From positions 1 through 64,000 of the forward strand of contig JAEUJN010000083.1 in the NCBI GenBank assembly GCA_016794595.1: 64,000 nucleotides of DNA. The letters are read 5' to 3'. This document shows positions 22,569 through 36,845 of this stretch, one piece after another (positions within the stretch are counted from its first letter, which is position 1; every line of letters starts with the position of its first letter). The notes beneath the pieces were generated by a model. That model worked only from the letters and a program-made list of their open reading frames with translations, was not told the DNA's origin and searched no databases. Source of the stretch: Kineosporiaceae bacterium (GTDB lineage: Bacteria; Actinomycetota; Actinomycetes; Actinomycetales; Kineosporiaceae). The translations under genes were made by a program, and so were the position numbers.

Positions 22569-22794
22569 GGTGATCTCCACGATCGAGGACCAGCGACGGG
22601 GCGAGCAGGCACACCGGCGACCAGCTCGGCGGGAAGGCCGCGGGTGGTCGCCACCGAACCCAGCCTAATGCGGGCCGCGTGTCCTTCGGAGCGGGGGGAG
22701 TGGTGACGCGCAGGCGAACGCCGAATGATCGTCTCGTGACGCCGTCCCCTGGCGGGGCGGCAGGCTCGGGCCCATCCGCCAAGGCTCCCCGCCC

Positions 22795-22810
22795 CTGCCC
22801 GCTCGGGCAG
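22795..22810. promoter_or_regulatory. mft operator candidate, site 1 (mftD)
   Basis: CTGCCCGCTCGGGCAG: perfect six-base arms around a four-base centre. It shares length and sequence with the sites at 24900 and 34134 (consensus CTGYCC-N4-GGNYAG). Its centre is 34 bases before the TAGCGT element, i.e. next to the expected -35. Confidence 0.55.
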
Positions 22811-22832
22811 TTCAGCGTGCTCGTGCCGCTGG

Positions 22833-22839
22833 CTAGCGT
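22833..22839 (+). promoter_or_regulatory. mftD promoter -10 candidate (CTAGCGT)
   Basis: CTAGCGT recurs before several genes of this window (4368, 34060 on the minus strand; 34196 on the plus strand), so it is probably the general -10 element of this genome. Here it lies 38 bases before the mftD ATG. Confidence 0.45.
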
Positions 22840-22877
22840 CGAGACGACGGGCCGGAGCGAGCCGAGGAGTGATCACG

Positions 22878-24056
22878 ATGGCGAGATCGGGGTGGTTCGA
22901 GACGGTCGCCGAGGCGCAGCGACGGGCCAAGCGCCAGTTGCCCAGGTCGGTGTACTCGGCTCTGCTGGCCGGCTCCGAACGCGGTGTGTCCTACCAGGAC
23001 AACACCGATGCCTTCGCTGAACTCGGGTTCGCCCCGCACGTGGCCGGGTTGGCGGCCACCCGAGATCTGTCGACGACCGTGATGGGCCGGCAGATCTCGC
23101 TGCCGGTGATCATCTCCCCGACGGGGGTGCAAGCGGTTCACCCGGACGGCGAGGTCGCCGTGGCCCGGGCCGCCGCGAGCCGTGGGACGGCGATGAGTCT
23201 GTCCTCCTTCGCCAGCAAGTCCCTGGACGAGGTCGTGGAGGCCAATCCGACGACCTTCTTCCAGATGTACTGGCTCGGGGGACGCGAGGTGCTGGAACGC
23301 CGGATGAACCAGGCGCGCGAGCGCGGGGCGGTCGGGCTCATCCTCACCCTGGACTGGTCCTTCTCCTACGGGCGTGACTGGGGCAGCCCGGCCATCCCGG
23401 AGAAGATCGACCTGAAGGCCATGGCCAGCTTCGCCCCGGAGGTGATCCTCAAGCCGCAGTGGTTGCTGCGCTTTGCCCGCAGTGGCTCCCTGCCCGATCT
23501 GGCCGCCCCGAACCTGGCCGAGGACGGCGTGGCCCCGACCTTCTTCGGCGCCTACGGCCAGTGGATGCAGACCCCTCCGCCCAGCTGGGAGGACGTTGCC
23601 TGGATGTGCGAGCAGTGGGGAGGACCGTTCCTGCTGAAGGGCATCTCCAGGATCGATGATGCCCGCCGCGCGGTGGACGCCGGGGTGAGCGCGATCTCGG
23701 TGTCCAACCACGGTGGCAACAATCTCGACGGCACCCCCGCGCCGATCCGGGTGCTGCCCTCGATCGCCGAGACTGTCGGCGAGCAGGTCGAGGTGCTGCT
23801 GGACGGCGGCATCCGCCGCGGCAGTGACGTGGTCAAGGCACTCGCCCTCGGGGCACGAGCGGTCATGATCGGCCGTGCCTCCCTGTGGGGGTTGGCCGCC
23901 GGTGGTCAGACGGGCGTCGAGAACGTGCTGGACGTGCTCAGGGGTGGGATCGACTCGGCCCTGCTCGGACTGGGCAAGTCCTCGGTCCGCGATCTGGGGC
24001 GGGACGACGTGCTGATCCCCGAGGGCTTCCAGCGCCGCCTCGGCGACGGCGGCTGA
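22878..24056 (+). CDS. mftD: pre-mycofactocin synthase MftD (FMN-dependent)
   Basis: 392 residues from ATG 22878, 8 bases after GAGGAG; GTG 22869 would add three. It belongs to the alpha-hydroxy-acid oxidase family with an FMN-binding TIM barrel: VIISPTGVQAVHP, FFQMYW, the catalytic SNHGGNNLDG, LLDGGIRRGSDVVKALALGARAVMIGR. MftD uses FMN and O2 to deaminate the AHDP ring released by MftE and yields the redox-active alpha-keto amide PMFT. The C-terminal GVENVLDVLRGGIDSALLGLG is diagnostic for MftD. It is unusual in being 11 kb away from mftABC, leading an operon of dehydrogenase and sensor genes. Confidence 0.93.
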   Translation: MARSGWFETVAEAQRRAKRQLPRSVYSALLAGSERGVSYQDNTDAFAELGFAPHVAGLAATRDLSTTVMGRQISLPVIISPTGVQAVHPDGEVAVARAAASRGTAMSLSSFASKSLDEVVEANPTTFFQMYWLGGREVLERRMNQARERGAVGLILTLDWSFSYGRDWGSPAIPEKIDLKAMASFAPEVILKPQWLLRFARSGSLPDLAAPNLAEDGVAPTFFGAYGQWMQTPPPSWEDVAWMCEQWGGPFLLKGISRIDDARRAVDAGVSAISVSNHGGNNLDGTPAPIRVLPSIAETVGEQVEVLLDGGIRRGSDVVKALALGARAVMIGRASLWGLAAGGQTGVENVLDVLRGGIDSALLGLGKSSVRDLGRDDVLIPEGFQRRLGDGG

Positions 24057-24066
24057 CAGCGCCGCG

Positions 24067-24882
24067 ATGGTCTGGGCAGCCTCCGGCCCCGGGTCCTCGG
24101 AGCACCGGGTGGCGCTGGTCACGGGCGCTGCGCGGGGGATCGGCGCCTCCACCGTGCGCAGTCTGGCCGCTCGGGGTTACCGGGTGGTCGCGGTGGACGC
24201 CTGCGCCGGCAACGGCCACGGGCTGCCGGGGGTCGACTACGAACTGGCCACCCCGGACGACTTGATCGACCTCCAGCAGCAGTGCGGCGAGGACGTGGTC
24301 ACGGCGATCGCCGATGTCCGCGACGTGGCGCAGCTGCGGTCGATTGCGGACCAGACCGTCCGGCGCTGGGGACGCCTGGACGTGGCCGTGGCCGCCGCGG
24401 CGGTGATCGCCGGGGGCAAGCCGTTGTGGGAGGAGAACACGCTGGAGGTCCTCTGGCAGGTCGACGTGCTGGGGGTGTGGAACACCGCTGCGGTCACGGT
24501 GCCGCACATGCTGGCGAGCGAAGACCCCTCCGGGGGGCGGTTCATCGCCGTCGCCTCCTCGGCCGGCGTCCGCGGCATCTACCGGCTGGCCGCCTACACC
24601 ACGGTCAAGCACGCCGTGGTCGGCCTGGTCCGCGGCTTGGCCGCCGACCTCGTCGGCACGGGGGTGACGGCGGTGGCGGTCTGCCCGGGAGCCACCCGGA
24701 CGCGCAAGTTGCGGGCCACGGCCGACATCTACGGCGTCCCGGTCGAACAGCTGGCGGACGCCCACCTGCTCAAGCAACTGCTGCACCCGACCGAGGTGGG
24801 CGAGACGATCGCCTTCTGCTGTTCCCGCGAGGCCCGCGGCCTGAACGGCTCGGTGGTGGCCCTGGACGGCGCGGGCGGGTGA
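24067..24882 (+). CDS. mycofactocin-coupled SDR oxidoreductase
   Basis: 271 residues. Rossmann motif VTGAARGIGASTV (about 19-31), catalytic Ser in VASSAGVRG and YxxxK as Y-T-T-V-K. Between the first two strands is an insertion (GNGHGLPGVDYELATPDDLIDL) like that of the mycofactocin-associated SDR subfamilies, in which bound NAD cannot leave and electrons pass to mycofactocin instead. The alcohol substrate is unknown. It begins 10 bases after mftD and should be on the same transcript. Confidence 0.85.
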   Translation: MVWAASGPGSSEHRVALVTGAARGIGASTVRSLAARGYRVVAVDACAGNGHGLPGVDYELATPDDLIDLQQQCGEDVVTAIADVRDVAQLRSIADQTVRRWGRLDVAVAAAAVIAGGKPLWEENTLEVLWQVDVLGVWNTAAVTVPHMLASEDPSGGRFIAVASSAGVRGIYRLAAYTTVKHAVVGLVRGLAADLVGTGVTAVAVCPGATRTRKLRATADIYGVPVEQLADAHLLKQLLHPTEVGETIAFCCSREARGLNGSVVALDGAGG

Positions 24883-24894
24883 GCACCGAGCTCG

Positions 24895-24920
24895 CGAACC
24901 TGTCCTTTCGGGCAGGTTCG
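24895..24920. promoter_or_regulatory. mft operator candidate, site 2, with hairpin potential
   Basis: The core CTGTCCTTTCGGGCAG (24900-24915) shares the shape of sites 1 and 3. Here the dyad is longer: CGAACCTG (24895-24902) pairs with CAGGTTCG (24913-24920), so RNA could fold an 11-bp stem with a TTTC loop, 13 bases after the SDR stop. It could therefore be a terminator as well as an operator, but no T-run follows. Confidence 0.5.
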
Positions 24921-24960
24921 GCCCGTTCCGTCGCCGGTGGGCCAGGCCGAGGCCGCCTGC

Positions 24961-24967
24961 CTAGGCT
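24961..24967 (+). promoter_or_regulatory. -10 candidate before the DUF4242 gene
   Basis: CTAGGCT lies 64 bases before the DUF4242 ATG and 47 bases after operator site 2, nearly the same layout as the mftA promoter. It suggests an internal promoter within the mftD block. Confidence 0.35.
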
Positions 24968-25030
24968 GGCCCCGGGGGCCGCCGGGGACCGATCCCCGCC
25001 GTGGACGGCGATCAGACTCTGGAGGGCATC

Positions 25031-25300
25031 ATGGCTCGGTACGTCATCGAACGGACCCTTCCCGGTGCGGGGGACCTGACCGCCGAGCAGCTGCACGACA
25101 TCAGCGCCAGGTCCAACGGCGTGCTGGCCGGGATGGTCGACGTCACCTGGGTGAGCTCGTACGTCAGCGATGACAAGCTGTACTGCATCTACGACGCCGC
25201 CGACCCCGCCCTGATCGAGGAGCACGCCCGGCGGGGAGGCTTCCCGGTCGACGTGATCAACCCGGTCCACACCGTGATCGGTCCCGAGACGGGTCGGTGA
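25031..25300 (+). CDS. DUF4242 (SCO4226-like, metal-binding ferredoxin-fold) protein
   Basis: 89 residues from ATG 25031 after GGAGGG. It matches the DUF4242 family: YVIERTLPGAG, then DVTWVSSYVSDDKLYCIYDAADPALIEEHARRGGFPV. A Streptomyces member (SCO4226) binds nickel and the fold is a small alpha/beta barrel dimer. It sits between the mycofactocin SDR and the iron alcohol dehydrogenase; a role in metal handling or as an accessory for the dehydrogenases is inference from position. Confidence 0.82.
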   Translation: MARYVIERTLPGAGDLTAEQLHDISARSNGVLAGMVDVTWVSSYVSDDKLYCIYDAADPALIEEHARRGGFPVDVINPVHTVIGPETGR

Positions 25301-25349
25301 CGCCGGCCGAGCCCCGTCGAGACCAGCGAATGGGGCCTTTTGCGCGAAT

Positions 25350-25400
25350 CGGTGGTAACGACACTGACCAGTGCGAGTCGGCGGGCGTTACGGTGGTCAC
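25350..25400 (+). promoter_or_regulatory. adh promoter region with direct repeats
   Basis: The decamer CGGTGGTAAC (25350-25359) recurs as CGGTGGTCAC (25391-25400), 41 bases apart, i.e. on the same face of the helix. CTGACC (25364-25369) and TACGGT (25389-25394) could be -35 and -10 with a 19-base spacer. This could be a second internal promoter for adh-madS-madR. Confidence 0.35.
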
Positions 25401-25422
25401 ACTCTGGGAGGAGTGATCTGTG

Positions 25423-26703
25423 ATGTCCACCGTGTCCGCCCGGGTGAGTGGGCGCACCACAGGTGGGCGCCACCCAGGGGAGGCCTCCGGCCCGCTCGGT
25501 GTCGAGCCCGACCCCGCGTCCGGGTTCGCTGCGACCTCGCCCGGGCACTCTGCCGGCTCCCTGGCCAAGTTCCACGCCCCCGAGGTGGTCTTCGGGATCG
25601 GATCGCTGGGCGAGGCGGGCTTCGCCGCCGTCCGCTTGGGCGCGCGGCGGCCGATGATCGTCACCGATCCGGGGGTGATCGAGGCCGGTTGGGTGGCGAT
25701 GCTGCGTCATCACCTGGCCGAGGCCGGCCTGCGCCCCGTGCAGTTCTCACAGGTGACCCCCAACCCCAAGGATCGCGAGATCCGCGCCGCCTACGAGTAC
25801 TACCTGCAGGAGCAGGCCGACGTGCTGATCGCGATCGGCGGCGGGTCCTGCATAGATGCCGCCAAGGGGGTGGCGATCCTGTCCGGCAACGGCGGGCAGA
25901 TCCTGGACTACGCAGGGGTCGACCAGGTGAGCCGGCCGATCCCGCCGACACTGATGATCCCGAGCACCTCCGGGACCGGCGCGGATGTCTCCCAGTTCTG
26001 CATCGTCACCGACACCGCCAGCGCTGTGAAGATCACCATCATGGGACGGGCGCTCGTCCCCGACATCTCCATCACCGATCCCCTCCTGCTCACCACCATG
26101 CCCGAGGACCTGAATGCGGCGACCGGGCTGGACGCGCTCACCCACGGGATCGAGTCCTTCGTCTCCCTGGCCCACAACCCTCTGGCCGACACCCACGCCC
26201 TCAACGCCGTGGGCCTGGTCTTCGGTCATCTGCGGGCCACGCAGGAGGACCCCGGCGAGCACGAGCACCGCACCAAGATGGCGCAGGCGAGCCTGCAGGC
26301 AGGGCTGGCGTTCAGCAATGCGATCCTGGGGGCGACCCACTCGATGAGCCACCAGGTGGGCGGGTTGCTGGATGCCCCCCACGGGGTGGTCAACGGGGTG
26401 CTGCTGCCTCACGTCATCCGCTACAACGCCGCCTCCAGCCCGCAGCGGTTCATCGCCCTGGCCCGGGCCGCCGGCCTGGTCGTCGACGGTCTGCCGGGTC
26501 AGGAGGCCGCCGAGCTGCTGGCCACGCACGTGCGGCGGCTCGCCGATGACGTCGGCGTTCCCCGGGGCCTGGGCGAGTTGGGCGTGACCGAGTCCGACAT
26601 CCCCAGGTTGGCCCGCACGACCATGCACGACGCCTGCCTGACCACCAACCCCCGCTCGGTCAGCGTCGAGGACGTCGCACAGCTCTTCCGCCAGGCACTG
26701 TGA
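25423..26703 (+). CDS. iron-containing (group III) alcohol dehydrogenase
   Basis: 426 residues from ATG 25423, 9 bases after GGAGGAG. The first 45 residues are a Pro/Gly-rich extension not usual in the family. Then follow the NAD-binding GGGSCIDAAKG and the metal site GLDALTHGIESF, ATHSMSHQVGG and DAPHGVVNGVLLPH, so Asp and the three His ligands are present. It oxidises an alcohol to an aldehyde, or the reverse. Its relatives in mycobacteria lie beside the methanol dehydrogenase gene. The stop overlaps the kinase start (GTGA). Confidence 0.88.
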   Translation: MSTVSARVSGRTTGGRHPGEASGPLGVEPDPASGFAATSPGHSAGSLAKFHAPEVVFGIGSLGEAGFAAVRLGARRPMIVTDPGVIEAGWVAMLRHHLAEAGLRPVQFSQVTPNPKDREIRAAYEYYLQEQADVLIAIGGGSCIDAAKGVAILSGNGGQILDYAGVDQVSRPIPPTLMIPSTSGTGADVSQFCIVTDTASAVKITIMGRALVPDISITDPLLLTTMPEDLNAATGLDALTHGIESFVSLAHNPLADTHALNAVGLVFGHLRATQEDPGEHEHRTKMAQASLQAGLAFSNAILGATHSMSHQVGGLLDAPHGVVNGVLLPHVIRYNAASSPQRFIALARAAGLVVDGLPGQEAAELLATHVRRLADDVGVPRGLGELGVTESDIPRLARTTMHDACLTTNPRSVSVEDVAQLFRQAL

Positions 26704-28133
26704 TCGAGGGCGGGGTGGATGCCATGGGCGAGGTCTCCCCGGCGCCCCCTGACCTGGCCACCCTCACCGGCGTCCGATCCGGCAAGCGGTCCTACTACAG
26801 CGCCTACGTGCGGTCCGACGAGCGGATGCAGCGCGCCGTCCGGGCCATGGACTCGATCTCCCGCGCCCTGGTCCGCACCGTGGAGGGCCCGCGCGCGCTG
26901 CTGGAGGAGGTGGTCAGGGCCGCGGCATCCCACCTGGCCGCCGAGTGGACGATCCTCGCCCTGTCCGATGGCCATCTGCGGGGTGCCCGGCCGCGCTTCC
27001 TGGTGCTCGGCCGCTTCGGCGAGCCGAGCGGTGAGGATCAGGGGCTGCCCGCACTGGTTCGACGTGAGCTCGCCGCCATCCGTGCTGGTCACGCGGTACG
27101 CAGCAACGATCACGGACGCTGGGTGCGGGTGCCGATGACGCTCGAGGGGCGCCAGGTGGGCAGCCTGGTGGGCCTGCACGGTCTGACCGACGATCCGGAG
27201 CCGGGGGACCTGTCGGTGCTGCGCATCCTGGCCAACCAGGCGGCGGTCTCCCTGCACACCTCGGAGCAGCACCAGGCCGGGCTGGCCCTGCACCGGCGTG
27301 CACAACGGCTGTACGAAGAGGCCACCGTGCGGACCCAGGACCTCGAGGCGCGCACCCGGGAGCTGCACCGGCTCGAGGAGCGCCTGGCTCAGGCCTACCG
27401 GCGAGAGCTGATCGACGGCGAACGCCAGCGGATCGCCCGGGAACTGCACGACAGCGTCACCCAGTACGTGCTGTCCACCGGGATGGCGCTCGAGCTGGCG
27501 CGCACGGACGCCGAGGGGCTCGGGCCGGCCGGTGCCGACCTGGCCCGGCAGCTGGGTGCGGCCAAGCAACTCACCCAGGAGGCGGTCGAGCAGCTGCGCA
27601 GCGCCATCTACGCCCTGCACCAGTCGCGACTGCAGACCTTCTCGACCTTGCCCGAGTTGCTCTCCGCCGTGGCCGATCACCACCGACCTCACCTGACGGT
27701 CGCCGTCCGAGTCGACGGGAAGGTGACGAGCCTGCCGGAGGGGTGCGGACACGAGATCGCCCGCGCGGTCGGCGAGGCCTTGTTCAACGTCGCGGTGCAC
27801 GCCCGGGCGAGCCGTGCCGTGATCCGACTGCAGTACCGCCCGGATCGGTTGACCGTCACCGTGGCCGACGACGGGCAGGGGAACCCGAGTGATCTGCGCC
27901 GGCGGCTGCGACTGGAGCAGGCGGCCAGCGACGGGCACCATCGTGGGCTGATGAACATCCAGAGCCGGATCACGGGGATCGGCGGCCAGGTGGCCTTCCG
28001 CCGCTCCGGCTGGGGCGGGGTCAAGGTCGAGCTGCGTATCCCCCTACCCCTGACCCTGCCCAAGAAGGCCAGATTGATCGAAGAGCTGCTCGGCACCGGA
28101 CAGCTCGCCCCACCCGAGGGAGGCTCTGGATGA
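26700..28133 (+). CDS. madS: GAF sensor histidine kinase, MadS family
   Basis: 477 residues from GTG 26700, which overlaps the adh stop; ATG 26724 is an alternative. A GAF domain (about 60-190) precedes a coiled segment and HisKA_3 with phospho-acceptor His250 in ERQRIARELHDSVTQYVLS; the HATPase has EALFNVAVHARASRAV, VADDGQGN and GLMNIQSRI. There is no membrane helix, so the signal is cytoplasmic. The same kinase/regulator pair lies beside the methanol dehydrogenase gene of mycobacteria; I recall the family names MadS/MadR for them. The inducer may be an alcohol or aldehyde. Confidence 0.85.
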   Translation: MIEGGVDAMGEVSPAPPDLATLTGVRSGKRSYYSAYVRSDERMQRAVRAMDSISRALVRTVEGPRALLEEVVRAAASHLAAEWTILALSDGHLRGARPRFLVLGRFGEPSGEDQGLPALVRRELAAIRAGHAVRSNDHGRWVRVPMTLEGRQVGSLVGLHGLTDDPEPGDLSVLRILANQAAVSLHTSEQHQAGLALHRRAQRLYEEATVRTQDLEARTRELHRLEERLAQAYRRELIDGERQRIARELHDSVTQYVLSTGMALELARTDAEGLGPAGADLARQLGAAKQLTQEAVEQLRSAIYALHQSRLQTFSTLPELLSAVADHHRPHLTVAVRVDGKVTSLPEGCGHEIARAVGEALFNVAVHARASRAVIRLQYRPDRLTVTVADDGQGNPSDLRRRLRLEQAASDGHHRGLMNIQSRITGIGGQVAFRRSGWGGVKVELRIPLPLTLPKKARLIEELLGTGQLAPPEGGSG

Positions 28134-28801
28134 GTCCCGCCCACGTGGCCCCGCCGGACGTGAACGACCCGGCTCGCATCATGTTGATCGACGATCACGC
28201 CATCGTGCGTCAGGGACTGCGCTCGATCCTCGAGCGCGAGCAGGACATGCAGGTGGTCGCCGAGGCCTCGACAGCGCTCGAGGCGTTGGCCGTGGTCGTG
28301 CGCGCACGCCCCGGGGTGGTCCTGCTGGACCTGAAGCTGTCCGCCTCCAGCGACACCGAGGGCCTGGACCTGTGCGCCGCCCTGGCGGCCGCACACCCCG
28401 AGATCGCCGTCCTCGTGCTGACCACGTTCCTGGACGAGCACCTGGTGCTGCAGGCCATCCGGGCCGGGGCCAAGGGGTACGTGGTCAAGGACGTCGACAC
28501 CACCGGCCTGATCCGCGCGATCCGCGATGTGTGCCGGGGCGAGAGCGCCTTCGACGCGCGATCGGCAGCGGCCATGGTGCGTGGCCTGAGCGCGCCGGCG
28601 GTGGAACAGTCCCAATTGACCGCTCGCGAGGCCGAGGTGTTGGCGCTCCTGGCGCGCGGTCTGTCCAACCGGGACATCGGCGTCCAGCTGTTCGTCTCCG
28701 AGACCACCGCGAAGTTCCACGTGGGCAACATCCTGCGCAAGCTGGGGGTCGCCCGTCGCACCGAGGCGGTGTACGCCGCGACCAAGATGGGGCTCATCTG
28801 A
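28130..28801 (+). CDS. madR: NarL-type response regulator, MadR family
   Basis: 223 residues. Receiver domain with Asp21-Asp22, phospho-acceptor Asp67 (VVLLDLKLS) and Lys in GYVVKDVDT; the LuxR-type helix-turn-helix is LTAREAEVLALLARGLSNRDIG with ETTAKFHVGNILRKL. ATG overlaps the kinase stop (ATGA), so they are coupled. It is the only DNA-binding regulator in the mycofactocin locus and the best candidate to bind the shared palindrome upstream of mftD, the DUF4242 gene and mftA. It is convergent with mftM and overlaps its end by 8 bases. Confidence 0.87.
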   Translation: MSPAHVAPPDVNDPARIMLIDDHAIVRQGLRSILEREQDMQVVAEASTALEALAVVVRARPGVVLLDLKLSASSDTEGLDLCAALAAAHPEIAVLVLTTFLDEHLVLQAIRAGAKGYVVKDVDTTGLIRAIRDVCRGESAFDARSAAAMVRGLSAPAVEQSQLTAREAEVLALLARGLSNRDIGVQLFVSETTAKFHVGNILRKLGVARRTEAVYAATKMGLI

Positions 28802-29729
28802 GCGGCCGGGTCGCGGTCTCGATCACCAGCCAGCCGCCGTGGAACTCATGGACGTCGAAGGGCAGGCCGGTGGCCAGTCCCCAGTGGTGCAGATCGGCCA
28901 GGCTCACGGTGCGCACGTGCCCCCAGGTCTCGTCGGCCTCCTCCTCCAGCGGGACGGCGATGACCACCCGAGACCTCGCCAGGCGGGTGGCCTCGGCGAT
29001 CACCCGGTTGCCGTCGGCCGGGTCGAGGTGCTCCACCAGGTGGACGGCCAGCACGGTGTCTGCGCAGGCGCTGTCCCTGGGGAAGCGGGTCGCGTCGGCG
29101 TGCATCGCCTGCAGTGCGACGCCCAGCCGCCGGGCGAGTGCGGTGAGCAGGTGGATCACCCCGGGGGAGGCGTCCGACGCAGTGACCTGCCGGCCAGCGG
29201 CCGCCAGCCGTAACGACAGGAACCCGAAGCAGCACCCCAGTTCGAGCACCGGTCCGTCCGCGGTGAGGGCCTCGGCATGGGCATACACCGGTGCGTAGTC
29301 GGCGATGGCCCCGTGCCCGGCCGCCTCGCCCCGCCGAGTTGCGAGCAGACACTCCTCGATCCGCCGCATCGTGTTGCGGTAGAACAGTTCCCAACTGGAC
29401 AGGGGGTCTGCCGCGCTGGTCAGCACGACTCCGGTGAAGATCCGTTGAAACAGCTGGGCGCCGCGCAGCCAGCCGGGCCCGAACAGCTCCCCGGCGAGGA
29501 GCCCGGCCAGGTCGTCGTCCACTGCCTGGGTGCCCAGGGTGTGCCCCACCTGGATGCGGGCGCCCACCCGCACGACGTCGAAGTGCTCGGTTCGTACCAT
29601 GTGCAGCACTCGCCGAGGGCGTACCGAGCCCAGTGCCCGTACCTCCACCACGGCGTCCCGGTAGACCCCGTCGACCGTCGACGCGAACGGATTGATCGGG
29701 CCTGCGTTGTCCCGGACCTCGATCGTCAT
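28794..29729 (-). CDS. mftM: mycofactocin oligosaccharide methyltransferase MftM
   Basis: 311 residues. SAM-dependent methyltransferase fold: motif I VLELGCCFGFLSLRLAAAG, acidic loop VTASDASPGVIHLL, motif TVLAVHLVEHLDP. The N-terminal 150 residues (MTIEVRDNAGPINPF, HMVRTEHFDVVRVGA) resemble MSMEG_6237, which methylates a glucose of the mycofactocin oligoglucoside. Its ATG overlaps the VWA gene stop by four bases (ATGA). The same order, methanol dehydrogenase region with the methyltransferase between regulator and VWA genes, is known from mycobacteria. Confidence 0.85.
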   Translation of the reverse strand: MTIEVRDNAGPINPFASTVDGVYRDAVVEVRALGSVRPRRVLHMVRTEHFDVVRVGARIQVGHTLGTQAVDDDLAGLLAGELFGPGWLRGAQLFQRIFTGVVLTSAADPLSSWELFYRNTMRRIEECLLATRRGEAAGHGAIADYAPVYAHAEALTADGPVLELGCCFGFLSLRLAAAGRQVTASDASPGVIHLLTALARRLGVALQAMHADATRFPRDSACADTVLAVHLVEHLDPADGNRVIAEATRLARSRVVIAVPLEEEADETWGHVRTVSLADLHHWGLATGLPFDVHEFHGGWLVIETATRPLR

Positions 29730-31270
29730 GGCGCCGTCGCCAGTGCCAGGCTCATCCGCTCCAGACCCCGCAGGCCGCGAACCACCCGCACTCGGTCGCA
29801 GAACTCGGCGTAGGCGGGCAGGTCGCACCCGCCGAGGGTCCAGGAGTAGCGCGGCTCCGGGGTCAGCCAGATCGTCGAGCGGGCCCGCCGACTGATCTCC
29901 CGGAAGGTGTCGAGCCGTGGGTTGTTGCCGTTGCCGCGGCCATCCCCGAGCACCAGTACCGTGGTCCGACGGGTGATCGCGGAGCCGTACTGCTCCAGGA
30001 AGACCTCGAACGCCCGGCCGTAGTCGGAGTCGGCATCGACATCGAGCAACCCGCCGGCCGGCAACCCGGAGACGACCAGCGACAGCGCCTCCTCGATCCG
30101 GTGTTCGGCGAACAGGTCGGTGATCTCGACCAGGTCGGCGCAGAAGGCAAACGTGCGTACCCCGGTGGCCAGACTCGCGAGCGAGTGCACCAGGTGCAGG
30201 GTGAACCTGGCCGTCATGCGCACCGACAGCGACACGTCGCACAACACCAGCAGCCGGGGGCGGTCCTCGACCTTGCGCACCGTCACCGGCCGGAACGGGA
30301 CCCCGTCGTAGCGCATGTTGGTCCGCATGGTGCGGGCCGGATCGACCGCGCCCCGGGCGGCCACCCGGCGGCGGGGTCGGGGAGCCCCGTGCAGGCTGCG
30401 CAGCAGGCGGCGCAACCCCTCCTCCAACGCTGCTCGGTCGGACTCGTCGACGGTGTGTGCGGTGACCGCGGCGATCTCACGCTCCTCGACCTCGTGGTGG
30501 CGGGTCATCAGTCGCTCGAGGTGCTCCCGCAGCCGTTCGGGCAGCGCGGCCAGGAACGGGGCGAGGGCCTCCCGCAACGCGGCCAGGGCCTCGGCGTCCC
30601 GAGCCGATCCGGTCGACTCCTCGGGCAGTTCGTCGGGCAGGTGCTCCCCGAGCCAGTCCAGCAAGGCCATCTCCTGGGCGACCGTGAGCTCGGTGTCCAG
30701 GTGCAGCCCCGGACGTCGGGCCAGGTCCCCGGGCATTCCCGGGTTGTGCAGCCGGCTCGTGGACAACTGCACCCGAGCGGCCTCGCCCGGGCCGCCCCGG
30801 TCATCCGCCGACAGCACGATCTCGTCGGTCACCGAGGCCATGTCCAGGCGTGAGGCCTCCTGGTGCAGGTTGTACTGCTGGGCCATGTCCTCGGGGCGGA
30901 AGTAGCGGTGCAGCTCCACCGGCTTGCCGTGGGAGTGGCCCTGAGCCGGGGTGTCCCCGGGTTCCTCGCTGAGGGTGAACTCGGTCAGCTCGCCGGAGTC
31001 ACTGAGGTCGTCGTGGGCGTGCGAGTGCTCGGGCTCCTGTGCCGTCAGGACTGCCCGCAACCCGAAGAAGGCGTCGAAGACCCTGTCGAAGGCGTCCAGG
31101 TCCCGCCGGTCCTTGATCAGCGAGACCATCAGTGCGCTGCGCAACACCTCCCGGTCCTCGAGAACTCCCGGTTGGGCGGCAGCGTGCAGGGCGTCGATGG
31201 TCTCGGCCACGCTGATCCGCACCCCGTGCAGGCGCAGCAGCCTGACGAAGCGGTGCAGCGCGCCGTCCAT
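29726..31270 (-). CDS. madC: VWA (CoxE-like) domain protein, MadC family
   Basis: 514 residues. An N-terminal helical part (VRLLRLHGVRISVAETIDALHA) and a charged middle precede the C-terminal VWA domain (about 315-514) with the metal-ion site DVSLS in LLVLCDVSLSVRMTARF. VWA proteins of the CoxE type act with MoxR ATPases to insert metal or cofactor into oxidoreductases. It follows the AAA ATPase gene after 21 bases and overlaps mftM. It should form a chaperone pair with the ATPase for the methanol dehydrogenase; that is inferred from the family. Confidence 0.85.
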   Translation of the reverse strand: MDGALHRFVRLLRLHGVRISVAETIDALHAAAQPGVLEDREVLRSALMVSLIKDRRDLDAFDRVFDAFFGLRAVLTAQEPEHSHAHDDLSDSGELTEFTLSEEPGDTPAQGHSHGKPVELHRYFRPEDMAQQYNLHQEASRLDMASVTDEIVLSADDRGGPGEAARVQLSTSRLHNPGMPGDLARRPGLHLDTELTVAQEMALLDWLGEHLPDELPEESTGSARDAEALAALREALAPFLAALPERLREHLERLMTRHHEVEEREIAAVTAHTVDESDRAALEEGLRRLLRSLHGAPRPRRRVAARGAVDPARTMRTNMRYDGVPFRPVTVRKVEDRPRLLVLCDVSLSVRMTARFTLHLVHSLASLATGVRTFAFCADLVEITDLFAEHRIEEALSLVVSGLPAGGLLDVDADSDYGRAFEVFLEQYGSAITRRTTVLVLGDGRGNGNNPRLDTFREISRRARSTIWLTPEPRYSWTLGGCDLPAYAEFCDRVRVVRGLRGLERMSLALATAP

Positions 31271-31291
31271 GACTGTCTCCCGATCCCTCGT

Positions 31292-32596
31292 TCAGACCGG
31301 CCGGCGTCGCGCCCGCGAGGCAGCGAAGGACCGGCTGCCCTGGGCCCGGCCGACGGACCGGACGGGGCCGACCCGACCCGTGGTCCCGTAATAGGCCTCG
31401 TCGTGCCGACCGGGAGTGTCCTTGGCTGCCCGCGCCGCCCGTCCGTCGACGTCGTCGTCGATCAGTTCGAAGGCGGTGCTCTGTTCCGGGCGCCCAGGAG
31501 CTGCCACCGGGGCGTGCCCGTCTCTCTCGTGCGCGTGATCGTGCCCGCTCCCGTGCGCGTGCCCGTCGTCGTGACCGTGCCCGTGCCCGTGGTCGTGCCC
31601 GTGCCCGTGCCCGTCGTCGTGACCGTGCCCGTGGTCGTGGCTGCCCGGGAGTCGGTGCGGCACAGCGGTGTTCGGGTCCACCAGCCCCGAGAGCAGCTGG
31701 GTCATCGATCTCGAGGCACGGTCCAGGTCCCGTTCGTACTTCAGCACCACGTTCAGAGTGGCCGACAGCACGTCGGCGCTGAGGTCCTCGACCCCCAGGA
31801 CGGCGAGAGTGCGTGCCCAGTCGATGGTCTCGGAGATGCTGGGGGCCTTGCGCAGCTCCAGCTCGCGCAACCTGCGGACCACCTCGACCAGCCTCGCGGC
31901 GAGCGCATCGGTCAGTCCGGTGTCCTTCGATCTCAGGATCTCCAGCTCACGCTCGGCGCTGGGGTAGTCCAGGAACAGGTGCAGGCAGCGGCGTTTCAGG
32001 GCTGCAGACAGATCGCGGCTGTTGTTCGAGGTCAGGATCACGTAGGGCAGGTGCACCGCACTCACGGTCCCGATCTCGGGAATGGAGATCTGGAACTCGG
32101 CGAGCAGTTCCAGGAGCACCGCTTCCAGGGCCTCGTCGGCACGGTCCACCTCGTCGATCAGCAACACGGTGGGCTCGGGGGAGCTGATCGCCTCCAGGAG
32201 CGGGCGGGGGGCCAGGAAGCGCTCGGAGAAGAACACGCTCTCGCTCGCCGCGATCCGTTCCACCGACGTGGGCAGGTCCGGGGCGTCGCCGACCAGTTGC
32301 CCGATCTTCTCCCGCAGGATCTGGGTGTACAGCAACTGCTTGCCGTAGTCCCACTCGTACAGCGCCTTGGTCTCGTCCTGTCCCTCGTAGCACTGCAGGC
32401 GCAGCAGCCGCCGGCCGGTGACCGCTGCCAGGCTGGTGGCGAGCTGGGTCTTGCCCACCCCCGCCGGGCCCTCGAGCAGCACCGGCTTGCCCAGCCGGGT
32501 CTGCAGGAACACGGTGGTCGCCAACCGCTCATCGGTCAGGTATCCGTGCTCGGCGAACCTCTCGGCGGTCTCGGCGACGTCGACGAAGTCCTTCAC
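31292..32596 (-). CDS. madB: MoxR-type AAA ATPase with His-rich tail, MadB family
   Basis: 434 residues from GTG 32596, preceded by GAAGGG. AAA core: Walker A GPAGVGKT (43-50), Walker B TVLLIDEVDRAD, sensor 1 VILTSNNSRDLSAALKRRC. From about residue 315 to 357 the C-terminus is a metal-binding-type tract of alternating His with Gly and Asp (HDHGHGHDDGHGHG...), about 17 His in 42 residues, followed by a short basic end. MoxR ATPases remodel dehydrogenases during maturation; such His tracts in HypB, UreE or CooJ store or deliver Ni or Zn. Here the tract could supply metal to the methanol dehydrogenase. It lies 110 bases after that gene. Confidence 0.88.
   Translation of the reverse strand: MKDFVDVAETAERFAEHGYLTDERLATTVFLQTRLGKPVLLEGPAGVGKTQLATSLAAVTGRRLLRLQCYEGQDETKALYEWDYGKQLLYTQILREKIGQLVGDAPDLPTSVERIAASESVFFSERFLAPRPLLEAISSPEPTVLLIDEVDRADEALEAVLLELLAEFQISIPEIGTVSAVHLPYVILTSNNSRDLSAALKRRCLHLFLDYPSAERELEILRSKDTGLTDALAARLVEVVRRLRELELRKAPSISETIDWARTLAVLGVEDLSADVLSATLNVVLKYERDLDRASRSMTQLLSGLVDPNTAVPHRLPGSHDHGHGHDDGHGHGHDHGHGHGHDDGHAHGSGHDHAHERDGHAPVAAPGRPEQSTAFELIDDDVDGRAARAAKDTPGRHDEAYYGTTGRVGPVRSVGRAQGSRSFAASRARRRPV
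31525..31652. repeat. CCCGTG hexamer repeat encoding the His-rich tail
   Basis: Imperfect tandem repeats of CCCGTG/GTCGTG on the plus strand read as Gly-His and Asp-His codons on the minus strand. Such hexamer tracts expand and contract easily, so tail length probably varies among strains. Confidence 0.75.
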
Positions 32597-32626
32597 GGCG
32601 CACCCTTCGGGTCGGGGCCGGGGAGG

Positions 32627-32658
32627 GTCCGGTCCGGATGGGCCGATCCGGACCGGAC
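32627..32658 (-). terminator. hairpin between mno and madB
   Basis: GTCCGGTCCGGAT (32627-32639) pairs perfectly with ATCCGGACCGGAC (32646-32658) around a six-base loop. No T-run follows. It lies downstream of mno and upstream of madB on the same transcript, so partial termination or 3'-end protection of the mno mRNA is likely. Confidence 0.6.
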
Positions 32659-32706
32659 GCCTCGTGCCCGGCACAGTGACAGGTGGACGAACCCGACCGA
32701 GCGGGC

Positions 32707-33999
32707 TCAGCCGAGCAGGTCGTCCAGGTCTCCGGTCATGCAGTGCTCCACGACGGGGCGGACCGTCTCGAAGGTGCACTCCTTGGCGTTCCCCGGGGTG
32801 CACGCGTCACCGAGCACGTGCCGGGTGATCCGGTCGACGTCCTCGGCGTCCCCCCTGATCACCGGGGAGTTCGCGTAGAACGCCGTCGGGCCCTGGCCCA
32901 GCCGGTTCTTGGAGTACGTGTCCTGCTTGACGTCGACGAACCGCTCGGTGATGCCCACGTCGCGCAACAGTCGGATGGCAGCCTCCAGCGCGGCCTCGGC
33001 GGCCTGTACGTCGGTCATGCCGTGGGTGTCGATCCCCATCGCCCGGGCGATGTCGGCGAACCGCTTGTACTGGGTGGGCATGTTGAACGCCCAGACCCGG
33101 GGGAGCGCAATGGCGTTGTTCAGCCCGTGGTGGGTGTCGTAGAACGCCGAGATCGCGTGTGAGATGGAGTGGATGATGCCCAGCCCACCGGAGTTGAACG
33201 CCTGGGCCGCGATGTACTGGGCGTACATCATGCCTTCCCGACCTGCGAGGTCCTGACCGTTCCACGTCGCCTGACGCAGGTTCTCCGCCGTCAGCTTGAT
33301 CGCGTGCAGGGCGTTGCCCAGCGAGGGATGGAAGTTCAGGCGGGACACGTACGGCTCACTGGCGTGCGCGAGCACGTCGAAGCCGCACTGGGCCGTGTAG
33401 TCGACCGGGCAGTCGTAGTAGAGCACCGGATCGTCGATGGCCAGGGTGGCCACCGAGGCGTCATCGAACGCCACGTACTTGTGCGGGTTGTCCGGGTCCG
33501 TCGTGGTGTCGGTGATGACATAGGCCCACGAGGTCTCCGAGCCGGTGCCGGCGGTGGTCGAGACCGCGATGTGCGGGGGGTTCTTCGGGTTCTCGCTCTT
33601 GTTGAAGCCCTCGAACTCGTTGACGTTGCGGCCGTCGTGGGCCACAGAGATCCGGGCGCCCTTGCACGCGTCGTGCGAGGAGCCGCCACCGATGGAGACG
33701 AAGGAGTCGCACTCGTTCTCCTGGTACAGGGCCACGGCATCCATGGAGTTGTAGTCCTTGGGATTGGACTCGACCTTGTCGTAGACCACGACCTCCAGGC
33801 CGTGGTACTTCATCGACTCCACGATCTTGTGCACGATGTCGGTGCCGCGCAGTCCCGAGGTCATCACCAGCGACTTGCGGAAGCCGAGCTTGAGGGCCTC
33901 GGGCCCGATCATCTCGTGCGCACCGGGACCCATCAGGGCCCGGGGGAAGGGATGGAACTCCTTGATGGGGAACGGTTTGAGTAGCTCGTCAACCTGCAT
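32707..33999 (-). CDS. mno: NDMA-dependent methanol dehydrogenase
   Basis: 430 residues. Group III alcohol dehydrogenase with FVSIGGGSSHDACKG for NAD and CGFDVLAHASE, IHSISHAISAFYDTHHGLNNA for metal. Length, the N-terminal KPFPIKEFHPFPRALMGPGAHE and the C-terminus match the methanol:NDMA oxidoreductases of Amycolatopsis and Rhodococcus and the mycobacterial MDO. These decameric enzymes hold NADH tightly and need an external acceptor; mycofactocin is the established or proposed natural one. The start is fixed by AGGAGG upstream. It converts methanol and other short alcohols to aldehydes in the cytoplasm. It is divergent from mftA. Confidence 0.92.
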   Translation of the reverse strand: MQVDELLKPFPIKEFHPFPRALMGPGAHEMIGPEALKLGFRKSLVMTSGLRGTDIVHKIVESMKYHGLEVVVYDKVESNPKDYNSMDAVALYQENECDSFVSIGGGSSHDACKGARISVAHDGRNVNEFEGFNKSENPKNPPHIAVSTTAGTGSETSWAYVITDTTTDPDNPHKYVAFDDASVATLAIDDPVLYYDCPVDYTAQCGFDVLAHASEPYVSRLNFHPSLGNALHAIKLTAENLRQATWNGQDLAGREGMMYAQYIAAQAFNSGGLGIIHSISHAISAFYDTHHGLNNAIALPRVWAFNMPTQYKRFADIARAMGIDTHGMTDVQAAEAALEAAIRLLRDVGITERFVDVKQDTYSKNRLGQGPTAFYANSPVIRGDAEDVDRITRHVLGDACTPGNAKECTFETVRPVVEHCMTGDLDDLLG

Positions 34000-34053
34000 G
34001 GGGACCTCCTGGCGGTGAACTCGTCGGTGAGTCGGGCCGGTCGTTCGATGCGG

Positions 34054-34060
34054 ACGCTAG
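34054..34060 (-). promoter_or_regulatory. mno promoter -10 candidate (CTAGCGT)
   Basis: On the minus strand CTAGCGT reads from 34060 to 34054, 55 bases before the mno ATG. The same heptamer is found before mftA, mftD and the STAS operon. Confidence 0.45.
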
Positions 34061-34131
34061 ATCGCCGATGGGCGGGCACGACAGGGCGGGGGCGCCAAAC
34101 AGGCCGACAAACACCTCGCCCGGTGGGTGTC

Positions 34132-34151
34132 ACCTGTCCGTTCCGGTAGGT
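34132..34151. promoter_or_regulatory. mft operator candidate, site 3 (mno/mftA)
   Basis: ACCTGTCCGTTCCGGTAGGT, an imperfect 20-base palindrome whose core CTGTCCGTTCCGGTAG (34134-34149) aligns without gaps with sites 1 and 2. It lies between the divergent mno and mftA genes, so one site could govern both. A second, unrelated dyad ACACC-N10-GGTGT sits beside it at 34111-34130. Confidence 0.55.
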
Positions 34152-34195: not shown

Positions 34196-34202
34196 CTAGC
34201 GT
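34196..34202 (+). promoter_or_regulatory. mftA promoter -10 candidate (CTAGCGT)
   Basis: CTAGCGT lies 64 bases before the mftA start and 47 bases after operator site 3. The arrangement is the same, within a base or two, as at the DUF4242 promoter. Confidence 0.45.
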
Positions 34203-34266: not shown

Positions 34267-34389
34267 GTGTCCGAGAAGCCGACCGGTTCCCCTGAACCCC
34301 TTGTGCGCCAAGAGGCAGAGAAGGCTCAGGCCGTCGAACAGAGCCTTGTCGAAGAGGTCTCCATCGACGGGATGTGTGGCGTGTACTGA
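34267..34389 (+). CDS. mftA: mycofactocin precursor peptide MftA
   Basis: 40 residues from GTG 34267, preceded by GGAGG. The leader is acidic and ends in EEVSIDGMCGVY: the conserved IDGMCGVY core in which the terminal Val-Tyr becomes the cofactor. MftC decarboxylates the Tyr and joins it to Val; MftE then cuts off the Val-Tyr derivative. In-frame upstream sequence (34201-34266) lacks a ribosome binding site and is not part of the peptide. First gene of mftABCEF. Confidence 0.95.
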   Translation: MSEKPTGSPEPLVRQEAEKAQAVEQSLVEEVSIDGMCGVY

Positions 34390-34451: not shown

Positions 34452-34730
34452 GTGCAGGAGAGCGAGACCTGGCGTCTGGCCCCGTCGGCGGCGCTGCGCC
34501 CGGAACCGTTCGGGGCCCTCGCCTACGACTTCGCCAGCCGGCGCCTGACCTTCCTGAAGACCCCCACCCTGGTCGACGTCGTCCGCTCGCTCGCCGACCA
34601 TCGGACCGTCGGTGCGGCGCTGGATGCCGCCGCAGTGACGGCCGAGGAACGTCCGGCCTATCTGCGTGCCCTGGACCGGCTCGGTGCCACCGGGCTGATC
34701 GTGCACGCCCGAGCAGGGAGCCCACCGTGA
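34452..34730 (+). CDS. mftB: mycofactocin peptide chaperone MftB
   Basis: 92 residues from GTG 34452, 11 bases after GAGGAGG. A PqqD-like RiPP recognition element: WRLAPSAALRPEPFGALAYDFASRRLTFLKTPTLVDVVRSL. It binds the MftA leader and presents it to MftC. 62 bases separate it from mftA, and its stop overlaps the mftC start (GTGA). Confidence 0.93.
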   Translation: MQESETWRLAPSAALRPEPFGALAYDFASRRLTFLKTPTLVDVVRSLADHRTVGAALDAAAVTAEERPAYLRALDRLGATGLIVHARAGSPP

Positions 34731-36058
34731 CCCTGACACCCCAGCCGCGTGCCGGATCGTCGCCGGGTGCCCGGGGGGCATCCGCGCCGAGACCGCTGGT
34801 CGAGAGCTTCGAGGAGGGTTTGGATGCCCCGATCTGCCTGACCTGGGAACTGACCTACGCCTGCAACCTGGCGTGCGTGCACTGCCTGAGCTCCTCGGGA
34901 CGGCGAGACCCTCGCGAGCTGTCCACGGCCGAGTGCCGAGCACTGATCGAGGACTTCGAGCGGATGCAGATCTTCTATGTCAACATCGGCGGCGGCGAGC
35001 CGACCGTCCGGGCGGACTTCTGGGACCTGCTCGATCACGCCGTCGAGCATCACGTCGGGGTCAAGTTCTCCACCAACGGGTTCCGGATCACCCCCGATCG
35101 GGCCCGCCGGCTCGCGGCGAGCGACTACATCGACGTCCAGATCTCGCTGGACGGCGCGACCGCTGCGGTCAACGATGCCGTCCGGGGCGCCGGCACCCAT
35201 GCCGCTGCCCTGCGCGCGCTGGGCCTCCTGCAGGACGCCGGGATGCGCGGGATGAAGATCTCGGTCGTGTGCACCCGGCACAACATCGACCAGCTCGACG
35301 ACCTCGCCGCGCTCGCCGACCGTCACGACGCCACGTTGCGACTGACCCGGCTGCGGCCCTCCGGTCGCGGCGCCGACGTCTGGGGGGAGTTGCACCCCCG
35401 GCCCGAGCAGCAGCGTCAGCTCTACGACTGGCTGCTGACGAACGGGGAGCGGGTACTCACCGGGGATTCCTTCTTCCACCTGTCCGCCTACGGGCAGCCG
35501 CTGCCGGGGTTGAACCTGTGCGGGGCGGGGCGCGTGGTCTGCCTGGTCGACCCGGTGGGCGATGTCTACGCCTGCCCCTTCGCGATCCACGAGCGGTTCC
35601 GAGCCGGATCGGTACGCGGGGCCGGCGGGTTCGAGCAGGTTTGGCGGCACAGCGACCTGTTCACCGAGTTGCGGTCACCGACCTCGGGAGGAGCCTGCTC
35701 CCGGTGTTCGGCCTACGACGCCTGCCGTGGTGGGTGCATGGCGGCGAAGTTCTTCACCGGCCTACCGCTGGACGCCCCGGACCCGGAGTGCGTCATGGGA
35801 CACGGCCAGGCCGCGCTGGAGTCCGTGCCCGCGAGCTCCCGGCCTGCCTGCGGTCAGGATCACTCGCACCCCGGCCCGGTCCGCAACGCCCCCGTGCGCA
35901 CCCCGGTGGCCGGACCCGTCGCGCTCGGCCCGGTGAGCGTTCGCCCGCGATCCTCGCCGCCGGACAGGGCCTGCGCGAGCGGGCCGTTGGCCCCCCGGGA
36001 ATTGACGCTCTTGACCGAGGAGCGCCGTGCGGCCGGGCCGCCCCGGGCCGCCGGGTGA
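34727..36058 (+). CDS. mftC: mycofactocin radical SAM maturase MftC
   Basis: 443 residues. The radical SAM Cys motif is C46-x3-C50-x2-C53 (CNLACVHC), followed by the GGE motif NIGGGEPT. The C-terminal SPASM domain supplies further Cys for auxiliary Fe-S clusters (NLCGAGRVVC, YACPF, ACSRCSAYDACRGGCMAAKFF, PECVMGHG). MftC performs the SAM-dependent oxidative decarboxylation of the MftA C-terminal Tyr and then its cross-link to Val. After the SPASM domain there is an 80-residue Pro/Arg-rich, probably disordered tail, longer than the minimal family core. Confidence 0.95.
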   Translation: MTLTPQPRAGSSPGARGASAPRPLVESFEEGLDAPICLTWELTYACNLACVHCLSSSGRRDPRELSTAECRALIEDFERMQIFYVNIGGGEPTVRADFWDLLDHAVEHHVGVKFSTNGFRITPDRARRLAASDYIDVQISLDGATAAVNDAVRGAGTHAAALRALGLLQDAGMRGMKISVVCTRHNIDQLDDLAALADRHDATLRLTRLRPSGRGADVWGELHPRPEQQRQLYDWLLTNGERVLTGDSFFHLSAYGQPLPGLNLCGAGRVVCLVDPVGDVYACPFAIHERFRAGSVRGAGGFEQVWRHSDLFTELRSPTSGGACSRCSAYDACRGGCMAAKFFTGLPLDAPDPECVMGHGQAALESVPASSRPACGQDHSHPGPVRNAPVRTPVAGPVALGPVSVRPRSSPPDRACASGPLAPRELTLLTEERRAAGPPRAAG

Positions 36059-36074
36059 CCCGGCCGGCCCGGCG

Positions 36075-36845
36075 ATGATCGATCCGCGTGGCCTGACGGG
36101 CGTGCGAGAGGACAGCACCGTGCCACCCGTCCAGGTCGGGCCTGCCGGGCGGCGGGTCGAGCTGGCCGCTCGACGGTGGATCGAGCTGGACGGGGTTGCG
36201 GAGGTGACGCTGCTGGTCCCGGTCGGCTCCCTGGAGCAGCACGGACCACATCTGCCGCTGAGTACTGATGCCGACGTCGCGACCGAGGTCGCCCGGCGAG
36301 CGGCGGCCCGACTCGGCGCCGAGGGAATCCACGCCCTGTGCGCACCGACGATCGGCTACGGCGCATCGGGTGAGCACCAGGACTTCCCGGGAACGATCTC
36401 GATCGGGCACCAGGCGCTCGAGCTGCTGCTGGTCGAACTCGCGCGCTCGGCCTGCCGTTGGGCCGGCACGGTCGTGGTGGTCAACGGACACGGCGGCAAC
36501 TCCCCGACCGTCGTCCGCGCGGTGACCCGGTTGCGCGCCGAGGGTCGCGATGTGCGCTGGGTGGCCTGCGCGGTCGTGGGTGGGGACGCCCACGCCGGAC
36601 ACGCCGAGACCTCGATCATGCTGTCCCTCGATCCACTGGCCGTGGGTCCCGACTGGTCACCCGGATTGCGCACCCCGATCACCGAGATCCTGCCCGCGCT
36701 GCGTGAGCACGGGGTGCGGGCGCTCTCTCCGAGTGGCGTGCTGGGCGACCCGAGGTCGGCGAGCGCGGCCACCGGTCGGCGGATGCTCGAGCTGATCACC
36801 CAGCGGGTCGTCCAGAAGGTGCTGCACGGTCCGGACCAGCCGTGA
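36075..36845 (+). CDS. mftE: mycofactocin peptidase MftE (creatininase family)
   Basis: 256 residues from ATG 36075; GTG 36027 would overlap the end of mftC, GTG 36120 is a third option. Creatininase-fold metal ligands are visible: the Glu and His of GSLEQHGPHLPLSTDAD, then NGHGGN and GDAHAGHAETSIML. It releases the modified Val-Tyr (AHDP) from processed MftA. Its stop overlaps the mftF start (GTGA). Confidence 0.93.
   Translation: MIDPRGLTGVREDSTVPPVQVGPAGRRVELAARRWIELDGVAEVTLLVPVGSLEQHGPHLPLSTDADVATEVARRAAARLGAEGIHALCAPTIGYGASGEHQDFPGTISIGHQALELLLVELARSACRWAGTVVVVNGHGGNSPTVVRAVTRLRAEGRDVRWVACAVVGGDAHAGHAETSIMLSLDPLAVGPDWSPGLRTPITEILPALREHGVRALSPSGVLGDPRSASAATGRRMLELITQRVVQKVLHGPDQP

Follow-up and report, generated by a model that had tools for sequence, protein, structure and literature searches.

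Candidate MadR activator boxes at the methanol dehydrogenase and mycofactocin genes of a Kineosporiaceae bacterium

A palindrome of about 20 bp, ACCTGYCCGNTCGGRCAGGT, precedes three sets of genes in a mycofactocin and methanol dehydrogenase locus of a Kineosporiaceae bacterium (contig JAEUJN010000083.1; the window, that is, the whole stretch of DNA analysed, comprises 64,000 nucleotides). We propose, with a probability of roughly 0.86, that its three copies are activator sites, or boxes, to which the response regulator MadR binds as a dimer. MadR would thereby control mno and madSR and, in a new role, would replace MftR in controlling the synthesis of mycofactocin, the cofactor on which the methanol dehydrogenase depends. 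Many actinobacteria show this arrangement again, and they often lack MftR.

The locus and its three palindromes

Genes were called with NCBIfam profiles and their curated cut-offs, apart from mftA, which was read from the sequence and its translation. A first group on the forward strand starts with mftD (22878..24056; TIGR03966, 691.6 bits), for which we took the ATG at 22878 as the start, the ORF being listed from a GTG at 22869, and the gene of a mycofactocin-coupled SDR oxidoreductase (24067..24882; TIGR04504, above cut-off). It continues with a small protein gene labelled "DUF4242" in the preliminary description (25031..25300; no NCBIfam match), homologues of which precede ercA in four of the related loci (L094, L098, L122, L145), and with the gene of an ErcA-like iron alcohol dehydrogenase (25420..26703; NF041833, 464.8 bits, below cut-off). 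Both partners of a two-component system follow with scores above the NCBIfam cut-offs, namely the sensor histidine kinase MadS (26700..28133; NF047786) and the response regulator MadR, the proposed binder of the boxes (28130..28801; NF047785). The reverse strand carries the genes of a MadC VWA-domain protein (29726..31270; NF047783, below cut-off) and a MadB AAA ATPase (31292..32803; NF047784, below cut-off), as well as mno, encoding the NDMA-dependent methanol dehydrogenase (32707..33999; TIGR04266, 668.5 bits, above cut-off). The MadB ORF as listed, on the same strand as mno, overlaps the end of that gene, and the real start of madB is probably farther downstream. As the MadC, MadB and ErcA-like scores fall below the curated cut-offs, these names are given by best family and position. 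Back on the forward strand lie mftA, whose precursor peptide ends in ...IDGMCGVY (34267..34389), mftB (34452..34730; TIGR03967), the radical SAM maturase gene mftC (34727..36058; TIGR03962), the peptidase gene mftE (36027..36845; TIGR03964) and the glycosyltransferase gene mftF (36842..38380; TIGR03965).

The three 16-base sites from which this analysis started are found in the sequence exactly at the positions first given for them. The consensus proposed for them, CTGYCC-N4-GGNYAG, fails at site 3, where the right arm reads CGGTAG, and in a 16-base frame a palindrome with six-base arms is poor at this site. The outer bases ACCT....AGGT restore dyad symmetry there, and the true unit is therefore about 20 bp, longer than the reported 16-mer. 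Seen in this frame, candidate MadR box 1 (CCCTGCCCGCTCGGGCAGTT, 22793..22812, forward strand) lies before mftD, and candidate box 2 (ACCTGTCCTTTCGGGCAGGT, 24898..24917, forward strand) before the DUF4242-ercA-madS-madR operon, at a position that is orthologous in relatives. Candidate box 3 (ACCTGTCCGTTCCGGTAGGT, 34132..34151, forward strand) is common to the divergent mno and mftA promoters and falls within the interval of about 110–150 bp before the mno start codon (33999). Sites 2 and 3 share the pattern ACCTGTCC-N4-SGGYAGGT over the 20-bp dyad (ACCTGTCCNTTCSGGYAGGT), and the symmetrised logo of related copies gives the half-site ACCTGYCCG. Site 1, with two mismatches to the family consensus and without the outer AGGT arm, is the least certain of the three.

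Specificity in the genome and promoter geometry

The 16-mer pattern, CTGYCCNNNNSGGYAG, matches the 4.95-Mb genome in 15 places (18 strand hits versus 10 for a control pattern), a specificity too low for a search model, and it was therefore dropped. By comparison, the 20-mer derived from sites 2 and 3 matches nowhere else in the genome at up to two mismatches, the next best places having three, and the earlier statement that the window holds no further copy stands, none being present at up to three mismatches. The family consensus, searched over the whole genome, matches five places at up to two mismatches; three of them are sites 1–3, within a 12-kb stretch, the fourth is internal to a coding ORF, and the fifth separates two divergent ORFs, of which one is, by its sequence, an ABC transporter gene. 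Genome by genome, control patterns score near zero, and the box is rare outside the proposed regulon. An equal frequency in random DNA, named at the outset as the outcome that would tell against the motif, was thus looked for, and the motif withstood the test.

The CTAG elements that follow the sites are, to judge from their letters, putative -10 hexamers of the form TANNNT, mostly TAGCGT. Sites 2 and 3 had been placed at a common distance of 47 bases from such an element; the distances are indeed close, but measure 45 and 46 bases after the 16-mers. Site 1, for which no such element had been mentioned, has one too (CTAGCGT at 22833, 22 bases after its 16-mer). When spacing is counted from the end of the 20-mer to the -10 hexamer, the predicted TAGCGT of the mftD-SDR promoter (22834..22839, forward strand) follows box 1 by 21 bases, and the same hexamer occupies the same place in relatives. 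A candidate TAGGCT (24962..24967, forward strand) follows box 2 by 44 bases, the modal spacing of ercA promoters. Box 3 would serve two hexamers, a TAGCGT for mno at 72 bases (34054..34059, reverse strand), a spacing also seen in the Kineosporia relative L080, and a TAGCGT for mftA at 45 bases (34197..34202, forward strand).

These distances fall into discrete classes in the related loci. The box precedes the -10 hexamer by 42–46 bases (21 cases, the window included) or 20–23 bases (9 cases) in ercA promoters, by about 62 (21), 72 (5) or 84 (26) bases in mno promoters, and, in most divergent mft-mno regions, by 42–44 bases on the side facing mft, where the hexamer is mostly TAGCGT. Box centres thus lie near -43, -67 and -95 from the predicted start, which are typical activator positions. 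The clusters at about 21, 43, 62, 72 and 84 bases fit steps of one or two helical turns, and periods of 8 and 13 score equally; helical phasing is only consistent with the spacings. When mno promoters were scanned for an additional degenerate box in a proximal position, no distinct peak emerged. Separately, mno promoters of Nocardioides and others contain a second conserved stretch, approximately GGTTTCCGGATCCTCGYCTGT, between the box and the -10 hexamer and about 33–41 bases before the latter.

Geometry bears most directly on site 1. Sites 2 and 3 could be MadR boxes while site 1 is a chance GC-rich palindrome, mftD-SDR then not belonging to the regulon through a box of its own. The missing outer arm would be explained in this way, as would the abundance of the 16-mer, the presence of a nearly identical 20-mer, CCCTGCCCGGTCGGGCAGTT, inside a coding ORF elsewhere in the same genome, and the degeneracy of the box-like sequences in the mftD promoters of relatives (5–6 mismatches). 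Chance accounts poorly for a genome of 4.95 Mb in which three of the five places at up to two mismatches fall in this one stretch, and for the position of site 1 exactly 21 bases before TAGCGT. In all seven relatives with the gene order of the window (7/7; most are Nocardioides and so not independent), the box-like sequence of the mftD promoter stands 21 or 22 bases ahead of the -10 hexamer, and full boxes in Streptomyces ercA promoters show this distance as well. It is this geometry that mainly supports site 1 as a box, and we regard a chance origin as unlikely.

The conserved spacing also argues against the palindromes acting as RNA hairpins, for instance as intrinsic terminators. The SDR stop codon is 15 bases upstream of site 2, whose RNA could fold into a strong stem (-23.4 kcal/mol for the stretch), but no T-run follows the possible GC stem; moreover, site 3 and many of its relatives stand between divergent promoters, where there is no transcript to end. 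This reading, which we consider barely credible, was set aside on these three grounds.

Conservation in actinobacterial mno loci

We compared 80 other actinobacterial mno loci, from Nocardioides, Phycicoccus, Janibacter, Streptomyces, Saccharopolyspora, Amycolatopsis, Pseudonocardia, Geodermatophilus, Mycolicibacterium and others, in which a frequent gene order is mft, mno, madB, madC, madR, madS, ercA. As an independent test, the pattern derived from window sites 2 and 3 only was run on the 350 bases before mno; it was found at up to three mismatches in 49 of the 80 loci, whereas shuffled promoters always gave five or more. Over 1.57 Mb of related loci, 88 copies occur at up to two mismatches, 55 before mno, 30 before ercA and 3 elsewhere, so that 85 of the 88 strong copies fall before mno or ercA-madS-madR, in regions totalling 61 kb (4% of the DNA). 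One of the three remaining copies lies 43 bases before an ercA match. In a set of 118 relatives of the window, the four genomes that possess both mno and madSR each hold two matches at one mismatch or fewer, and most others hold none.

The arrangement of the boxes varies. Tandem boxes 22 bases apart precede ercA in two Streptomyces loci (L093, L105), and tandem boxes 51–54 bases apart lie between mft and mno in eight loci (L079, L082, L093, L105, L117, L119, L133, L134), where the window has one shared box. No recognisable box was found in the mno promoters of six Pseudonocardia loci (L120, L126, L130, L131, L132, L151), and in these genomes MadR is encoded elsewhere.

MadR as the candidate regulator and the place of MftR

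The suggestion that MadR is the best candidate binder gains support from the association of the box with madSR, from the presence of MadR and from published work on MnoSR. In many loci the box stands before both mno and the ercA-madS-madR operon, and in some genomes where madSR is unlinked from mno it is still found before the madSR operon. Of 27 mno genomes checked for MadR, most of them selected because the 10-kb flank had shown none, 25 encode a protein that exceeds the curated MadR cut-off. MadR has a LuxR/NarL-type HTH that is conserved with the M. smegmatis-group protein. In M. smegmatis, MnoSR regulates mno positively, expression of mno and msmeg_6239 is lost without MnoSR, and MnoR binds a palindrome 137 bp before mno, as determined by EMSA and MST, mismatches weakening the binding (PMC11303327). 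Given this positive regulation, the "operator" of the preliminary description is better read as an activator site.

Two M. smegmatis-group genomes, picked by using the exact published MftR footprint sequence as a tag, both carry the box upstream of mno, at -132 to -113, and encode a MadR that is 66–67% identical to that of the window. The window boxes would thus correspond to the published MnoR palindrome, as judged from position and from conservation against M. smegmatis-group mno promoters. In both genomes a perfect palindrome, ACCTACCCGATCGGGTAGGT, lies between madC and the ercA counterpart (L249:5841-5860, L250:5041-5060), at the msmeg_6239 position; the ErcA-like protein of the window is 63% identical to the M. 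smegmatis-group protein, and we take it as the msmeg_6239 counterpart by position and identity. In published work, a search of the whole genome with the mno palindrome as seed reported a correlation at the mno operon only.

Binding of MadR in this organism, activation of the mft promoters and the inducing signal are what we infer from these observations, and to that extent the boxes might belong to another response regulator, or to a TetR-type protein that has replaced MftR and controls the same genes. Orphan MadR-like proteins without boxes nearby point the same way: in five Kineosporia genomes with a MadR-like regulator and without mno, no box at up to two mismatches occurs near the gene, which is mild counter-evidence to the link between MadR and the box unless these proteins are paralogues. 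Such a substitute nevertheless appears very improbable, as the box follows the madSR operon, in some genomes even away from mno, the palindrome bound by the orthologous MnoR of M. smegmatis has a similar position (PMC11303327), the known MftR site has different letters, and MftR is absent. Together with the boxless Pseudonocardia mno promoters, the boxless orphan proteins of Kineosporia need explanation. In G002, G006, G008, G010 and G011 (for example L234:4410-5153), MadR-like regulators occur where mno is lacking and no MadS is clearly adjacent; the one in L234 lies, as read from the sequence, near a PfaD-like gene.

The absence of MftR, first remarked for the window, extends to the whole genome, where the best TetR-type match reaches 84 bits against a cut-off of 224.9. 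The MftR operator T-N2-GGCA-N5-TGCC-N2-A does not occur before mftA, the palindrome there being that of box 3; with these different letters and MftR missing from the genome, we set aside an MftR operator as the identity of the sites. Among 47 genomes, MftR above the cut-off is missing in 17 of the 29 that have mftB/C in the mno locus and in 1 of the 18 that do not (Fisher p = 0.0002, which overstates independence because the species are related); it is kept in 12 linked genomes. This trend fits a takeover of mft control by MadR, without proving it. Beyond this organism, it seems fairly probable that in a large share of actinobacteria MadSR, not MftR, regulates mycofactocin biosynthesis, that one bidirectional MadR box couples cofactor synthesis to the methanol dehydrogenase using that cofactor, and that MftR has been lost almost only where mft adjoins mno.

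In the mechanism that we propose, MadS would sense a signal, probably methanol, formaldehyde or another alcohol, and phosphorylate MadR, which as an orthologue of M. smegmatis MnoR would act as a dimeric activator. Bound to its boxes, MadR would recruit RNA polymerase to promoters with a TAGCGT or TAGGCT -10 hexamer at fixed distances. Box 1 would drive mftD-SDR, box 2 DUF4242-ercA-madS-madR, which amounts to positive autoregulation, and box 3 both mno and mftABCEF in opposite directions, MadR thereby standing in for the missing repressor MftR. With one regulator on all three boxes, the enzyme, the regulator and the synthesis of the cofactor would be co-induced.

Control of mycofactocin has so far been known mainly from mycobacterial MftR, and the present locus adds a specific alternative, in which control would lie with a two-component system that responds to alcohols. 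Its boxes, -10 hexamers and spacings are given to the base and are open to experiment in Nocardioides, Streptomyces or Saccharopolyspora that can be grown in culture. For the M. smegmatis group, the proposal predicts an MnoR site upstream of the counterpart of msmeg_6239. The boxes also suggest a set of well-defined promoters, probably inducible by methanol, for use in GC-rich actinobacteria.

Compared with known systems, the proposed boxes are closest to the MnoR palindrome of M. smegmatis (Dubey and Jain 2019, via PMC11303327), with which they share an orthologous response regulator, the target mno, a similar distance before it, and positive regulation of both mno and the gene of an ErcA-like dehydrogenase. 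They differ in number, since the published MnoR target is a single copy at mno, whereas the window has boxes before madSR, mftA and mftD as well, and in setting, the mft genes of M. smegmatis lying elsewhere under MftR while those of the window adjoin mno. The mycobacterial MftR operator (PMC8728441) is likewise a palindromic control element in the mftA promoter, but it has the sequence T-N2-GGCA-N5-TGCC-N2-A and is bound by a TetR repressor instead of a response regulator.

NarL/LuxR-type activators generally use inverted repeats of about 20 bp that place a dimer upstream of RNA polymerase, and the boxes of the window resemble such sites in their repeat and predicted distances.
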